This document shows, piece after piece, positions 33,842 to 51,292 of a DNA stretch of 64,000 nt (position 1 is the first letter of the stretch; each line of letters starts with the position of its first letter). The stretch is from Faecalibacter bovis (lineage in GTDB: Bacteria > Bacteroidota > Bacteroidia > Flavobacteriales > Weeksellaceae). The notes under the pieces were generated by a model. It was not told the origin of the DNA. It saw nothing but the letters and a program-made list of their open reading frames with translations, and made no database searches. Location of the stretch: assembly GCF_017948305.1 (NCBI RefSeq), contig NZ_CP072842.1, positions 1,156,001 to 1,220,000 on the forward strand, in the 5' to 3' direction. Position numbers and translations under genes: made by a program.

Positions 33842-34411
33842 ATGAATTTATTTATAAAATCTAAAAAATCAGTGGAAGAGCTTTTAATCGAAAGGTTAAA
33901 AAAAAATGATAAAAAAGCTCAACGCGAATTATACGATCTACACGCTAAAAAGATGCTAGCCGTTTGTAGAAGCTATATTTCTGACAACTTTTATGCGGAA
34001 GATTGTATGATTAATGGATTTTGTAAAATATTTAATCACATTCAAAAATTTGAAAATAAGGGAAGCTTTGAAGGGTGGATTCGCCGAATAATGGTTAATG
34101 AATGTTTAACCTTTTTACGATCAAACAAAACCTTGATTTATTTGGACGATACCAGAGTAACAGATTATGATGGTATTGATGATGAATTAGACGAATTAGA
34201 ATTTACGTTTAATGTAGAAGAGGTTTTACAGCAATTACCAGAAGCGTATAGATTAGTTTTTAATCTTCACATATTAGAAGATTATTCGCATCAAGAAATT
34301 GCAGAAGTTTTGAATATTTCGGTTTCATCAAGTAAAACACAATTGTTTCGTGCAAAAGCCAAGTTAAAAGAAATCATCCTAACCCAAAAAAGAGTTCAAA
34401 ATGAAATTTAA
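33842..34411 (+). CDS. ECF-type RNA polymerase sigma factor (first locus)
   Basis: This 189-residue protein has sigma-70 region 2 (about 20-100, with YAEDCMINGFCKIFNHI and GSFEGWIRRIMVNE) and region 4 (about 125-180, with LPEAYRLVFNLHILEDYSHQ and the recognition helix near EIAEVLNISVSSSKTQL). It is clearly a paralogue of the sigma factor at 49028-49594: both share GSFEGW, the IMVN block and EDYSHQEIA. It overlaps the next gene by 11 bp, so its probable anti-sigma factor is translationally coupled to it. Its regulon is unknown; autoregulation is expected by analogy. Confidence 0.92.
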   Translation: MNLFIKSKKSVEELLIERLKKNDKKAQRELYDLHAKKMLAVCRSYISDNFYAEDCMINGFCKIFNHIQKFENKGSFEGWIRRIMVNECLTFLRSNKTLIYLDDTRVTDYDGIDDELDELEFTFNVEEVLQQLPEAYRLVFNLHILEDYSHQEIAEVLNISVSSSKTQLFRAKAKLKEIILTQKRVQNEI

Positions 34412-35060
34412 AGAATATATACAATCAGAAGTTAATCAAAAGGAAATTGAACCATCGCACGATGCTTTTGACCGCATTCAAGCCAGATTAGGTAATCAAC
34501 AAGAAATTGTTTTACAAAAATCAACGACAAAATGGTGGGCTATTGCAGCTACGGTTATCGGATTAGCTGTTTGTACAACGATATTTTTTACTCAAAATAA
34601 AACTCAAAATACAGAATTTGTATCTCATGATCTTAATGCGATAAAGGATACAATTTCTACTAAAGAAACGGTTGAAGATAAATCTAAAATCAATTCAGGA
34701 AATGAAGTTCAATTGGTAGAAAGTTCAAATTCTAAAGCTGATGCTGAAACTAAAGTTGAATCTCTAAAACGCGAAAATTCAGAATCTGATATTCAAATTG
34801 CAGTCCAACCAACAAAAGAAATAATTCAAGAACAACCTAAAGTTGCAAATCCTATACAAGTGCCGAATTTGGCAACTGGATTAAAATCAAATCAGAATCA
34901 AATTGCAACGAATTTAGATACGGTGAAAGTAAATCCTAAGAAAAAAGGAAATTATGTGGATCCAAATATGTTGTTGTATTCTATCGAAAATAAAGAATCT
35001 TTAAAAGAATCAAACAATCAGAAATCGAAAGTTGCAGTTATCGATCTGAATAAAAAATAA
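34401..35060 (+). CDS. Single-pass inner-membrane protein, probable anti-sigma factor
   Basis: This 219-residue protein has a short cytoplasmic N-terminus with SHDAFDRIQARLG (19-31), one membrane helix (about 45-64, WWAIAATVIGLAVCTTIFF) and a long periplasmic tail rich in Asn, Lys, Glu and Ser that looks disordered. The N-terminal motif matches PIDAWKNIEEKL of the fused protein at 47707-49053, and the gene starts inside the sigma-factor gene, so I infer an anti-sigma role. The sequence does not match the classical zinc anti-sigma (ZAS) motif. The tail ends with YVDPNMLLYSIENKES, which may be a contact site for the barrel protein encoded next. Confidence 0.7.
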   Translation: MKFKEYIQSEVNQKEIEPSHDAFDRIQARLGNQQEIVLQKSTTKWWAIAATVIGLAVCTTIFFTQNKTQNTEFVSHDLNAIKDTISTKETVEDKSKINSGNEVQLVESSNSKADAETKVESLKRENSESDIQIAVQPTKEIIQEQPKVANPIQVPNLATGLKSNQNQIATNLDTVKVNPKKKGNYVDPNMLLYSIENKESLKESNNQKSKVAVIDLNKK

Positions 35061-35088
35061 TCCATTCACTAATTAAAAAATACTACAT

Positions 35089-36129
35089 ATGATAAAGAAA
35101 ATTATTGTAGCAGGAATGCTGTGCTTTTTTGCTACACCAATGTTGGCACAAAGTATCGGAATTGACTTTAATAAAAAAGGAGATCAAGATAAAGTAAGTC
35201 CTAAAGTTCGTGAAAAAATGGACGAATTTCAGTTGCAAATCAAAGAAATTGTAAATGAAGAAAAAGCGAAATTAGATTCAGCAATCCAGCAATTAGAAAA
35301 AGATATTGCGGAAGGTAAAATAACGAAAGAAAAAGCAGATGAAACTAAAATTCAGTTAGCGGAAGCTTCTTCAGAAATTATTAATGAAAGAATCCAGAAA
35401 GTAAATTTTGATTTAGATGATTTGATTAAAAAGCAAGTTGCTTTTGCAATTTTGAATGGAAATGATACAGATGAAATTCCAACTTTAGAAGATTTAAAAA
35501 AGAAGCACAGAGCAACGCATAATCTAACAGGTTATATCGGTTATGGATTCATGGGGTTTACAGAAAAAAAGGATGAACAATTGGATGATCGTTTAGGTTT
35601 TGCAAATAATTTTGAATTAGGTTTAACTTATACAAAACAGTTTAACGCTGCTAGTCCATGGTCGTTAAAATCAGGTATGGTTTTCTCTTGGCGTACAACT
35701 CGTTTGGATGACGATTATAAATTTGTAAGAGGTGCGGATGGAAATACAACATTGCAACATAGCGAAACTAAATTGGATAAAAGTAAGCTAAGAGGTTCTT
35801 ATTTAATTGTACCTTTAGGGTTACAATATACCTTTGGTAATAAGGTTTCGGTAGATGATTTTACATATTACAAAGAGAAAGATTTAGCAATTACAGCAAA
35901 TGTTTATGGTGGTGTAAAATTATCGAACAATAACATTGTAAAAGGTGATGATATTAGCCAACGCGATAAAAAAGATTATAATCTGAACCCTTTTGTTTAC
36001 GGTGCGCAACTAACTTTCAGAATTAATTCAGTCAATATTTATGCTCGCAAAGAATTTTCAAATTATTTTGATAAAAACACTTTTGACGATCGTAAAATGT
36101 TTCAATTTGGTGTTAATTTCGGATTTTAA
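35089..36129 (+). CDS. Outer-membrane beta-barrel protein with a periplasmic coiled-coil domain
   Basis: This 346-residue protein has a signal peptide (about 1-20, ending MLAQ), a highly charged helical, probably coiled-coil segment (about 36-115, with EKAKLDSAIQQLEKDIAEGK) and a beta-barrel-like C-terminal region (about 145-346). It ends in Phe (MFQFGVNFGF), the usual signal for insertion by the BAM complex. It follows the probable anti-sigma gene by 28 bp. Together with that protein it supplies the same parts found fused in the protein at 47707-49053, so it may sense the outer membrane and signal to the sigma factor. That role is inferred. Confidence 0.75.
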   Translation: MIKKIIVAGMLCFFATPMLAQSIGIDFNKKGDQDKVSPKVREKMDEFQLQIKEIVNEEKAKLDSAIQQLEKDIAEGKITKEKADETKIQLAEASSEIINERIQKVNFDLDDLIKKQVAFAILNGNDTDEIPTLEDLKKKHRATHNLTGYIGYGFMGFTEKKDEQLDDRLGFANNFELGLTYTKQFNAASPWSLKSGMVFSWRTTRLDDDYKFVRGADGNTTLQHSETKLDKSKLRGSYLIVPLGLQYTFGNKVSVDDFTYYKEKDLAITANVYGGVKLSNNNIVKGDDISQRDKKDYNLNPFVYGAQLTFRINSVNIYARKEFSNYFDKNTFDDRKMFQFGVNFGF

Positions 36130-47691: not shown

Positions 47692-47708
47692 TCTTCGCCT
47701 TTGTTGTT
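47671..47708. terminator. Long bidirectional terminator overlapping the DUF2141 stop codon
   Basis: Bases 47671-47687 pair perfectly with 47692-47708, a 17-bp stem with a four-base ATAA loop. The left arm encodes the last residues of the DUF2141 protein, and the right arm ends at the stop codon of the convergent fused sigma-regulator gene. There is no long T run; the arms end in AACAAC/GTTGTT. Confidence 0.75.
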
Positions 47709-49053
47709 AAAATTTATATGAAAATCCAATCCCAATTCCGAGTAAAGAATTCTCTTTATTTGAAAAATTATTTAACGGATTAATTAAAAATTTATAATTA
47801 GGTTCAAGATTAATTCCAGCTTTTTCAGAAAGCAAATATTCAAATTTTAAACCTGCATTAGCCGAATAGCTATAATCATTTAAGTTTTCTGCTTTACCAA
47901 TTTTACTTCTGCCGTAGGTTTGATTGTCAATAAAAATATCATTTTTAGTTAAAATCATATAACTTCCACCACCAACTAAATAAATGTTAAATTGAGATTT
48001 GTTATTTAAACGATATTCAATTTCAACCGGAATTTCAAGAAATTCAACCCTTTGATTCATGGTATTTTTTTCAGTACTATAAAACGTAGTTGGATAATCT
48101 TGATGATTGGTAATAACCTGCAAATTTCCGTTGTATTTGATGTTATTATTGTTTGTTCTAATATTAGAAGACAACGGGATAACATTTGTACTTTGTATTG
48201 CAGAAGTGCTCGCCATAACAACATCTTTTGTGTTTTGATCAAAATCAAGTTTAGATATTCCCGTTCGTATTTTTAATTTATCGTTGATTTGATAGGCTAA
48301 TTTAGCACCATAAGCCACAGTTACTTTATTGTCAATTTCGTGTGTATTAAACGAGTTTGAAAGTATTGATTCTTCTTTTAAAAAAGTTGAAGTTGAAACA
48401 AATGTAGAAACAGAAAACTTAGTTTTAGGATCGAGTTTTTTCGGATCAAGATCAACCTTTGCCTTCTCTTCAATCAAGATTTCCTCGATTGTTTTCTCTT
48501 TATTTGATTCATCTTTTTGATCAATTTGATTCTGAGTTATCAATTGATTAGAAAATATCTTTTCATCAATAACCTGTTGATTATTTGTTGAATTAGTTTT
48601 TTTAGTTCCTAAATATTCTCCTAAATCAAAATTATTATAATCATTTTCAGCGCTTTTAAAATCTGAATTTTTGACCGAATTTAACTGATTTGTTTTATTG
48701 TAACTTTCTGATTTTGAGTGTTTGTTTCCGTTATTAACAATGTTAATAATTTTGTTAGTATCCTTTAAATTATTTAAAGAATCTAAAGTGTTATTCTTTT
48801 TTAGAATAGAATTTATAGTCTTATCCTTATGTACAATTTCAGGTTGATTTGTTGTATTTTCTTTCGCATGAAAAAAGTAAGTTACACCAGCTATACCTAA
48901 ACATGCAGCAGAAGATGAGATCCAAAAAATAAAAGGAATAATTCTTTTTTTCTTCTTTTGATCTAATTTCTCTTCAATATTTTTCCACGCATCAATTGGA
49001 GGAGTTTGATGTTCTGAAAGTTTATTTTTAATATGATGATCGAACTTGTTCAT
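47707..49053 (-). CDS. Dma-like dual membrane-spanning anti-sigma protein (anti-sigma N-terminus fused to outer-membrane barrel)
   Basis: This 448-residue protein has no signal peptide. It begins with a short cytoplasmic domain with PIDAWKNIEEKLD (19-31), then one inner-membrane helix (about 38-61), then about 150 residues rich in Asn, Lys, Ser and Gln that look disordered (about 64-210), and finally an outer-membrane beta-barrel-like domain (about 211-448) with VEFLEIPVEIEYRL, FNIYLVGGGSYMI and a terminal Phe (GIGFSYKF). This order matches dual membrane-spanning anti-sigma (Dma) proteins reported in Bacteroides thetaiotaomicron, in which one chain crosses both membranes. Its start lies 26 bp inside the sigma-factor gene. 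The barrel region begins KFSVSTFVSTSTFLKEE. Function here is inferred. Confidence 0.8.
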   Translation of the reverse strand: MNKFDHHIKNKLSEHQTPPIDAWKNIEEKLDQKKKKRIIPFIFWISSSAACLGIAGVTYFFHAKENTTNQPEIVHKDKTINSILKKNNTLDSLNNLKDTNKIINIVNNGNKHSKSESYNKTNQLNSVKNSDFKSAENDYNNFDLGEYLGTKKTNSTNNQQVIDEKIFSNQLITQNQIDQKDESNKEKTIEEILIEEKAKVDLDPKKLDPKTKFSVSTFVSTSTFLKEESILSNSFNTHEIDNKVTVAYGAKLAYQINDKLKIRTGISKLDFDQNTKDVVMASTSAIQSTNVIPLSSNIRTNNNNIKYNGNLQVITNHQDYPTTFYSTEKNTMNQRVEFLEIPVEIEYRLNNKSQFNIYLVGGGSYMILTKNDIFIDNQTYGRSKIGKAENLNDYSYSANAGLKFEYLLSEKAGINLEPNYKFLINPLNNFSNKENSLLGIGIGFSYKF

Positions 49054-49594
49054 TGTTTACTTGAGATTTTAATTGATGTAATTTTTGTTTTAAAAAACTT
49101 CGTGCTCGTGAGAGATTTGATTTTGATGTTCCTACTGAAATTTGGAGTAAATCTGCAATCTCTTGATGCGAGTAATCTTCGATTACATAAAGATTAAAAA
49201 CCTGTCGGTATTGGGAGGGAAGTGTCTGAATGACTGAGAGTATTTCGTCATATTCATAATCAAATTCGTCATTATCTTCATCAGATGATAAATCAGGGAT
49301 TTGATCAATTTCATTGTTACTAAAATTATGATTTTTGCGGTATTTATCAAGTGAAAGATTAACCATAATTTTCTTCATCCAACCCTCGAAAGAACCTTCA
49401 AAATTGTATTGATCGATCTTATTAAAAATTAAAATGAAACCCTCCTGAAAAGTATCCTGCGCGTCTTCGTAATTATCTGCATATCGTAGACAAATAGAAA
49501 AAAGAATAGGAGAGAACTGTTGGTATAAAAGTTCTTGTCCCTTCCTATCCTTTTTTTTGCATAGCAGTACAATTTTTTCTATTGGGTTTCCCAA
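49028..49594 (-). CDS. ECF-type RNA polymerase sigma factor (second locus)
   Basis: This 188-residue protein has sigma region 2 (about 20-95, with YEDAQDTFQEGFILIFNKI and GSFEGWMKKIMVN) and region 4 (about 125-180, with LPSQYRQVFNLYVIEDYSHQ and GTSKSNLSRAR). It is a paralogue of the sigma factor at 33842-34411. It overlaps the Dma-like gene by 26 bp, which supports translational coupling and a sigma/anti-sigma pair. A lipoprotein gene lies 19 bp upstream, so the three genes are probably one operon. The regulon is unknown; envelope or vesicle control is suggested by analogy only. Confidence 0.92.
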   Translation of the reverse strand: MGNPIEKIVLLCKKKDRKGQELLYQQFSPILFSICLRYADNYEDAQDTFQEGFILIFNKIDQYNFEGSFEGWMKKIMVNLSLDKYRKNHNFSNNEIDQIPDLSSDEDNDEFDYEYDEILSVIQTLPSQYRQVFNLYVIEDYSHQEIADLLQISVGTSKSNLSRARSFLKQKLHQLKSQVNNEQVRSSY

Positions 49595-49613
49595 AACTTA
49601 TATAAACGTATTT

Positions 49614-50063
49614 TTATTCTGATGGTACTGTAATAGTTTTTGAAATGTAGATATCTGCACCTCCTGGATCTTTACCAGCCCAAACTCTAATTGTTTGTTC
49701 TCCTGCAGTTGTTGGAGTAAATTTTAAAGTTTTAACAGTCGTAATGATATCATTCGTACATGCAGAATTATTTTTTTGTGAACCAAATACTCCGATTTTT
49801 GTATCGTTTGCATCTGCTGGTAAAATTCTTCTGAATTCTAAAAATTCTTGACAACTTCCTGCTAAGTTAAACGAGATTTTAACGTTTGTAGGTTGCGAAA
49901 CTGGTTGGATTGAATCTAAATTTACATCAATGGCAGTTGCTGGTATAAAACCATAAGTGTAAAAAGGTTCGTTAGAATCATCATCTAAACAGCTAACAGT
50001 TGTAACACCAATAAATACTAATAAAAATAGGTAGCTGAAAAATTTAGTCATCTTCATAATCAT
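49614..50063 (-). CDS. Lipoprotein encoded before the second sigma factor
   Basis: This 149-residue protein has a lipoprotein signal with TVSC (Cys25) followed by LDDDSNEP; acidic residues right after the Cys are typical of surface-export signals in Bacteroidetes lipoproteins. The rest looks like a beta-sandwich (KISFNLAGSCQEFLEF, KTLKFTPTTAGEQTIRVWAGKD) with two further Cys (about 71 and 96) that could form a disulfide. I recognise no named family. The start is the first of three in-frame ATGs near 50051-50063; the exact one is uncertain. Its position before the sigma/Dma-like pair suggests a link to envelope sensing. Confidence 0.75.
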   Translation of the reverse strand: MIMKMTKFFSYLFLLVFIGVTTVSCLDDDSNEPFYTYGFIPATAIDVNLDSIQPVSQPTNVKISFNLAGSCQEFLEFRRILPADANDTKIGVFGSQKNNSACTNDIITTVKTLKFTPTTAGEQTIRVWAGKDPGGADIYISKTITVPSE

Positions 50064-50141
50064 GTTTTTTTAAAGTTATATAAAGATAAGATGTGAAAAA
50101 CTGAAAAGGTTGCGTAAGTATTTAAATTTTAACATTTAAAC

Positions 50142-50176: not shown

Positions 50177-51292
50177 TTATTTTAGGAATAAATCTTTTGT
50201 AATTAAGTTGGCTGTTCGTACAGATGCGCCAACACCACCTAACTTATGATACAATTCTTCGTAATCATTCAAGATTTGTTCACGCTTAGGAGAATTTAAA
50301 ATTAAGTTCAATTCGTGTTTAATATTTTCGTACGTTAAATCGTATTGAATTAATTCTTTTACCACTTCACGATCCATGATTAAATTAACCAAAGAAATGA
50401 ATTTAATATTTTTTACTACTCGTTTTCCGATTTCATAAGAAAGAGCATTTCCTTTATAACAAACCACTTCAGGTACTTTTAATAAAGCTGTTTCCAAAGT
50501 AGCCGTTCCTGATGTAACTAACGCAGCATGAGAAATTCGAAGTAAATCATAGGTTCTGTTTTCTACAATTTTTAAATCATTCCCTGCGATGGCTTTGTAG
50601 TTTTCTGTTGGTTGTGATGGTGCTCCTGCAACAACAAATTGATAATCAGGAAAATCTTTTTCTACCGATAACATCAAAGGTAATTTAACTTTAATTTCTT
50701 GCGTTCTACTTCCAGGTAAAACTGCTATAATCGGTCGGTCATCTAATCCAAATTTCGTTTTAAATTCCTTTTCATTTACTTCTGGTAAATTATTTAATGA
50801 ATCTAATAATGGATTTCCTACAAAATCAACTTTATAATCATATCGTTGATAAAACTCTTCTTCAAAGGGAAGAATCACGAACATTTTATCAACTAATTTT
50901 TTGATTTTATGTACACGTCCTGTTTTCCAAGCCCAAATTTGTGGAGAAATATAATAGTAAATTTTGATGCCTAAAGACTTGATAAAAGGTGCAACCTGTA
51001 AGTTAAAACCAGGATAATCAACCATGATTACACAATCGGGTTGGTAAGCTTGAATATCTTTTTTACAGAATGAAAGATTTTTTGTAATTGTACGAATATT
51101 CATAATCACTTCTGCAAATCCCATAAAAGCCAAATCACGGTAATGTTTAACAATTTCACCACCTTGAGCTTCCATTAAATCGCCACCCCAACAACGAAAC
51201 TGCGCGTTTGGATCTTTGATTTTGATTTCTTTCATTAAATTCGAAGCGTGTAAATCGCCCGAAGCTTCACCTGCAATAATATAATATTTCAA
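50177..51292 (-). CDS. lpxB: Lipid-A-disaccharide synthase
   Basis: This 371-residue glycosyltransferase (GT19) joins UDP-2,3-diacylglucosamine and lipid X to make the lipid A disaccharide at the inner membrane. It starts IIAGEASGDLHASNLM, the family N-terminus, and has VDYPGFNLQVAPFIKSLG, YYISPQIWAWKTGRVHKIKK and VTSGTATLETALLKVPEVVCYK. The start is TTG at 51290-51292; the next ATG (residue 21) would remove the conserved GEASGD loop. It has its own -7 box and terminator. Other lpx genes are not nearby. Confidence 0.95.
   Translation of the reverse strand: MKYYIIAGEASGDLHASNLMKEIKIKDPNAQFRCWGGDLMEAQGGEIVKHYRDLAFMGFAEVIMNIRTITKNLSFCKKDIQAYQPDCVIMVDYPGFNLQVAPFIKSLGIKIYYYISPQIWAWKTGRVHKIKKLVDKMFVILPFEEEFYQRYDYKVDFVGNPLLDSLNNLPEVNEKEFKTKFGLDDRPIIAVLPGSRTQEIKVKLPLMLSVEKDFPDYQFVVAGAPSQPTENYKAIAGNDLKIVENRTYDLLRISHAALVTSGTATLETALLKVPEVVCYKGNALSYEIGKRVVKNIKFISLVNLIMDREVVKELIQYDLTYENIKHELNLILNSPKREQILNDYEELYHKLGGVGASVRTANLITKDLFLK

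Follow-up and report, generated by a model that had tools for sequence, protein, structure and literature searches.

How might one polypeptide carry a signal across two membranes to a sigma factor, and what would that sigma factor then transcribe? The question is raised by three consecutive minus-strand genes in a 64,000-nucleotide stretch of the Faecalibacter bovis genome (contig NZ_CP072842.1, positions 1,156,001 to 1,220,000; hereafter the window, in whose numbering all positions are given), a genome that consists of one contig of 2.84 Mb. The genes encode, in order of transcription, a lipoprotein (50063-49614), an extracytoplasmic function (ECF) sigma factor (49594-49028) and a protein that we take for its anti-sigma factor (49053-47707). 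We propose, with a probability of roughly 0.6, that they form a single self-activating operon in which the anti-sigma factor spans both membranes and the lipoprotein is the output. Its parts are as follows.

49614..50063, minus strand: lipoprotein of 149 amino acids (start perhaps at 50057), lipobox ..SC followed by LDDD
49028..49594, minus strand: ECF sigma factor of 188 amino acids, TTG start, gene overlapping that of the anti-sigma factor by 26 bp
47707..49053, minus strand: putative dual-membrane anti-sigma factor (Dma/Reo type) of 448 amino acids, from architecture, profiles and predicted structure
48946..49053, minus strand: residues 1-36 of the latter, candidate sigma-binding part, with P18, W23 and I26 invariant in 21 sequences and related N-termini in other anti-sigma factors
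48859..48933, minus strand: residues 41-65, predicted inner-membrane helix after a basic run (low-confidence model; hydropathy peak at 38-56)
48421..48858, minus strand: residues 66-211, predicted disordered periplasmic tether (predicted local distance difference test score, pLDDT, below 50 over 62-187)
47710..48417, minus strand: residues 213-448, predicted 8-strand outer-membrane barrel, OmpA-like, with terminal Phe

Architecture and class of the putative anti-sigma factor

The 448-residue protein has no signal peptide, and its hydropathy profile shows a single inner-membrane helix. Hydropathy, alignment and a structure model together bear out a preliminary description made from the letters of the window, which had pointed to the missing signal peptide, one transmembrane helix, a low-complexity stretch and a barrel ending in Phe; the modelled C-terminus (residues 213-448) is indeed a barrel of eight strands resembling OmpA. 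The 26-bp overlap given there also holds, the anti-sigma gene starting inside the 3′ part of the sigma gene (49053 against 49028). The tether varies from 117 to 280 residues among 80 relatives, and the closest named relative of the protein, from Faecalibacter macacae, is 63% identical. Pfam gave no anti-sigma domain and a barrel match only below its cut-off, NCBIfam gave no match, and these searches combined with a PDB sequence search returned nothing beyond that sub-threshold barrel.

This domain order is that of a published class. Dma of Bacteroides thetaiotaomicron, encoded beside an ECF21 sigma factor, is described as an N-terminal sigma-binding domain, a transmembrane helix, a disordered tether and a C-terminal barrel (PMC13088901), and Reo of B. 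fragilis and Phocaeicola vulgatus belongs to the same class (PMC9308784, PMC13114119). The preliminary description had the class right and named B. thetaiotaomicron alone, omitting Reo. All four features (N-terminal domain without signal peptide, single transmembrane helix, long tether, C-terminal barrel) are present in the F. bovis protein. The N-terminus also resembles its Bacteroidales counterparts: a profile of residues 1-66 matched four barrel anti-sigma factors linked to NigD at E 1.4e-6, 7.7e-4, 4.1e-3 and 0.08, and a barrel profile matched the same four at E 1.1e-7 to 6.2e-15, while residues 1-36 alone gave weak matches (E 0.14-0.74 in three, the fourth unlisted). Two of three small NigD-linked anti-sigma factors appeared in the profile search at E 0.37 and 0.48, the third being unlisted, as were four unrelated proteins.

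The sigma factors point the same way. In a tree of 56, the window sigma and those linked to both NigD and a barrel fall into one group (96/85, n=46), and the barrel label requires 2 changes on the tree against a mean of 15.4 when shuffled. Within this group 38 sigmas are barrel-linked and eight have other anti-sigma factors, and a barrel therefore does not define the group as a whole. Because architecture, profile matches and sigma tree agree, the assignment of the protein as a flavobacterial Dma/Reo-type dual-membrane anti-sigma factor, already proposed in the preliminary description, appears supported.

Two Bacteroidales systems invite closer comparison. EcfO-Reo and Das1-Dma1 are sigma/anti-sigma pairs that drive nigD genes (PMC13114119, PMC9308784, PMC13088901). 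EcfO-Reo, like the F. bovis unit, combines an ECF sigma factor with an anti-sigma factor reaching from the cytoplasm to an outer-membrane barrel, and one of its sigma-controlled nigD genes (M0N98_03762) is numbered next to ecfO (03761) and reo (03760); since these locus tags are consecutive, the gene order is probably that of the F. bovis triad. It differs in belonging to the Bacteroidales and using NigD lipoproteins, whereas F. bovis is one of the Flavobacteriales and its lipoprotein lacks NigD_N. Das-Dma shares the four-part anti-sigma factor beside an ECF sigma; however, PMC13088901 does not describe nigD1 (bt_4005) as a neighbour, whereas the F. bovis lipoprotein gene adjoins that of the sigma factor. 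The third gene of the B. thetaiotaomicron dma2 operon is BT_1557, which has no assigned function (PMC13088901). The vesicle effect of the dma1 mutant requires NigD1 (PMC13088901). An ECF/anti-sigma pair and a different ECF-type motif (SM6, with a 'CGT' box) have been reported in Flavobacterium psychrophilum (PMC9723704). A search of the mainly open literature yielded no description of a flavobacterial Dma/Reo member or of the promoter considered below, though subscription papers may mention them. The sensor class is already known from Bacteroides; what looks new is a conserved triad with a shared promoter.

Conservation of the gene triad

The order lipoprotein-sigma-anti-sigma recurs at the same place in all 13 other genomes of the genus (14/14 with this one), two of which carry a second, tandem lipoprotein gene. 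Two more genera of the family keep the triad at other genomic places, and in a member of another family (G039) the lipoprotein gene lies behind the anti-sigma gene. The sigma gene adjoins the barrel gene in 20 of 20 relatives examined; at four of these 20 loci (L049-L052; G040, G053 twice, G038) the pair occurs without the lipoprotein.

Among the best 80 of 472 named loci found, chosen as the closest to the query, sigma and barrel genes adjoin in all 80 and the triad is present in 77; 36 of the 80 are titled Winogradskyella, and the named loci are therefore not independent. Most of them (67) stand beside recA, nine beside lpxB, comEC and the DUF2141 gene, and four beside none of these. An order-wide sample of 296 genomes yielded 79 genomes with any barrel match at 1e-10, from which 61 barrel loci in 54 genomes were kept along with 83 lipoprotein rows. 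Rows left out were mostly barrel rows matching the N-terminal part or the barrel end alone, and lipoprotein rows weaker than about 2e-8; split matches were merged. The barrel and lipoprotein searches scored up to 5 and 13 candidates per genome, respectively, and absences in this sample are not proof. A lipoprotein gene is adjacent on the same strand at 29 of the 61 barrel loci, upstream in 28 of these with a gap of 554-720 bp, the width of one sigma gene. Forty-one genomes hold relatives of the lipoprotein although no barrel locus was kept from them. Other orders of the class likewise contain pairs of sigma and barrel genes to which no recognised lipoprotein belongs.

The sigma gene itself has TTG or GTG as its start codon in 74 of the 77 named relatives with an aligned start and ATG in three, the starts having been assigned mechanically as the first possible codon. 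Such starts are perhaps a hint of dosage control, by which sigma would be kept below the level of its inhibitor.

A predicted promoter upstream of the lipoprotein gene

Just upstream of the first gene lies a short conserved element:

50087..50115, minus strand: predicted sigma-dependent operon promoter, ACGCAACC-N15-ATCTTA, from conservation and pattern counts

The ACGCAACC block is invariant in 14 of 14 genomes of the genus and recurs in two genomes outside it (G022, G031), though not in G039; in most genomes TCTWA-like letters follow 16-17 bp beyond it, and the flanking sequence has diverged. The strict pattern CGCAACC-N16-17-TCTWA occurs once in the window (50087-50114; 0.01 expected), and that site, at this operon, is its sole match in the genome; a backward control likewise gave one match genome-wide. 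Over the 14 genomes it occurs 34 times against 12 for the backward control, with none in G011. Thirty loci are given for the 34 matches, comprising 13 triad promoters (some of them the same pair of sites), three intergenic positions elsewhere and 14 positions within reading frames.

Among the named loci, CGCAACC-N15-17-TCT precedes 71 of 77 lipoprotein genes (63 at a spacing of 17, eight at 16); shuffling gave a mean of 0.02, and the reversed pattern was absent. A wider motif search was positive at 75 of the 80 loci; of three triads without the motif, two carry it upstream of a second lipoprotein gene and one has a one-letter change. In the order-wide sample 16 of 18 triads have the core GCAACC upstream, against none of ten orphan lipoprotein genes, and so do 9 of 17 sigma genes that lack a preceding lipoprotein gene; it precedes none of 11 NigD genes.

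This is the pattern of conservation that autoregulation would leave, and we infer that the sigma factor reads the promoter. Since the genome matches the strict pattern nowhere else, the operon has the look of a circuit that activates itself, with the lipoprotein as its one predicted product that is not regulatory. In one species of the genus (G003, L161:1501-1985) a perfect promoter match precedes another small lipoprotein gene, a possible second sigma target there.

The lipoprotein and its proposed NigD counterparts

The lipoprotein is a single domain, and two cysteines besides the lipid cysteine are invariant in 19 relatives. Pfam, NCBIfam and PDB sequence searches assigned it to no family, and individual members just reach Ig-like models (E 0.001-0.01). 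At least two acidic residues stand at positions +2 to +6 in 73 of 81 lipoproteins (the lipid cysteine being taken as the first cysteine after residue 10), which is a feature of surface lipoproteins (PMC5080379); this acid-rich protein probably sits at the outer surface of the outer membrane. Tandem lipoprotein genes before the sigma gene number three in Zunongwangia pacifica (L208:588-2254) and two each at L034 and L040. Orphan relatives in genus g21 (L093, L096, L097, L100, L110) lack the promoter core; the one at L093, scanned with Pfam, sits between gidB and a DUF922 gene.

Comparison with NigD involves one neighbouring gene:

50177..51292, minus strand: lpxB, context gene, which also precedes nigD in three Bacteroidales loci

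This gene flanks the operon at one end, and a DUF2141 gene together with comEC lies at its other end; we named lpxB and comEC ourselves from their sequences. In some Bacteroidales NigD genes occupy the same slot before sigma and anti-sigma genes, following lpxB in 3 of 11 loci as in F. bovis, and the mature proteins likewise begin with acidic residues. Four of five NigD-like PDB structures (4pqx, 3qwn, 3k0y, 3k6o, 4j8q) are among the best 22 VIA rows for the lipoprotein. In contrast, the F. bovis protein is one domain with two conserved cysteines, has no sequence similarity to NigD beyond the signal-peptide region, and the NigD_N domain has no match in its genome (G000). Full-length hhalign gave 95.5%, starting in the signal peptide and covering 75 columns of the N-terminal part; the lipoprotein profile matched NigD loci at E 1e-3 to 1e-6, matches that were lost once the signal peptide was removed. 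The mature profile reached 0.8% hhalign probability against 11 NigD proteins, with no hmmsearch match above threshold. Since the matches begin in or depend on the signal peptide, we rejected homology by sequence and dropped common descent: the two appear alike only in position and, weakly, in fold.

In the preliminary description the lipoprotein was regarded as a possible additional sensor component. That it belongs to the unit, as a conserved third member, is strongly supported by the triad; the sensor role fares less well. An effector or output role is more likely, judging from sequence and analogy, because the predicted sigma promoter drives the lipoprotein gene and NigD, which fills the same slot in some Bacteroidales, is a sigma target. 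No second target is predicted in this genome, which makes the lipoprotein the natural output.

Proposed circuit and alternatives

In the circuit that we envisage, residues 1-36 of the anti-sigma factor would hold the ECF sigma in the cytoplasm, helix 41-65 would anchor the protein in the inner membrane, the tether of about 150 residues would cross the periplasm, and the barrel would serve as the sensing end in the outer membrane. Disturbance of that membrane or of barrel assembly might change or destroy the anti-sigma factor and so free the sigma, whose main transcript would be its own operon, read from ACGCAACC-N15-ATCTTA. The lipoprotein would be the product that rises for the benefit of the cell, a counterpart of NigD, and newly made anti-sigma factor would close the loop and switch the sigma off again. 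A stricter version is more tentative, at slightly less than even odds: a minimal closed circuit of two-membrane anti-sigma factor, sigma and one surface lipoprotein as sole product, its promoter kept across Flavobacteriaceae and Weeksellaceae, with the lipoprotein doing the work of NigD without its sequence.

Bacteroidales two-membrane anti-sigma factors have NigD lipoprotein targets without known action. With a single lipoprotein, a single predicted promoter and a single operon, the flavobacterial system is small enough to test such questions as which signal the barrel receives, how one chain signals across two membranes and how the lipoprotein serves the outer membrane, and the predicted promoter offers a direct reporter for that signal. 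If the stricter version is true, a sigma factor with a two-membrane sensor and a surface lipoprotein would be a basic form of this Bacteroidota stress response.

The single-operon circuit could instead be an artefact of too strict a pattern, the dual-membrane anti-sigma factor in fact governing a broad envelope regulon. The Bacteroides Das-Dma systems change many genes (PMC13088901), and in a few genomes of the genus the motif stands before other genes, including the small lipoprotein gene at L161. Allowing one mismatch at the window spacing, however, added just one site in the F. bovis genome, and that one within a reading frame, bringing the total to 2 against 3 for the backward control; a wider regulon drawn with one-mismatch promoters was rejected for want of any excess. 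We consider a broad regulon somewhat unlikely.

RcsF, a lipoprotein that works with OmpA in E. coli, is a precedent for sensing by a lipoprotein and a barrel together. By this analogy the F. bovis lipoprotein might be bound to the barrel or threaded through it and inform the anti-sigma factor of the condition of the outer membrane, which would suit the tight linkage of the two genes, the OmpA-like fold of eight strands and the acidic start typical of surface lipoproteins (PMC5080379). It sits badly with the 32 of 61 order-wide barrel loci at which no neighbouring lipoprotein was found (misses are possible) and with the 41 genomes that have lipoprotein relatives and no kept barrel anti-sigma locus; the place of the gene first behind the predicted promoter, and its tandem copies in some genomes, fit an output. 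We regard a sensor role as quite unlikely, although both it and a wider regulon are compatible with the remainder of the self-activating operon proposed here. That the protein is an ordinary outer-membrane barrel encoded by chance downstream of a sigma gene, its N-terminus having no anti-sigma role, would agree with the meagre Pfam and NCBIfam results, yet it is very improbable given the lack of a signal peptide, the N-terminal residues invariant in 21 sequences, the related N-termini behind other sigma genes on proteins with quite different outer parts, and sigma and barrel genes that, at nearly every one of the 80 named loci, overlap (37 loci) or come close to touching.

Related anti-sigma heads elsewhere

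A second ECF sigma gene occurs on the plus strand of the window at about 33842-35865 (L268), followed by a gene for a 219-residue, single-span anti-sigma factor whose N-terminal domain is related (E 4.4e-6). The next gene encodes a distinct protein that matches a barrel below threshold, so that the parts of the triad anti-sigma factor are here divided between two genes. The related N-terminus is also found in two further genera of the family, at the head of proteins of about 790-850 residues encoded directly after an ECF sigma gene (L279:1808-4273 and L281:1234-3789, also L280 and L282). The two that were scanned (L279, L281) combine a TonB plug, a von Willebrand A domain and either YfbK_C or a type IX secretion tail; the same cytoplasmic head therefore bears very different outer parts.
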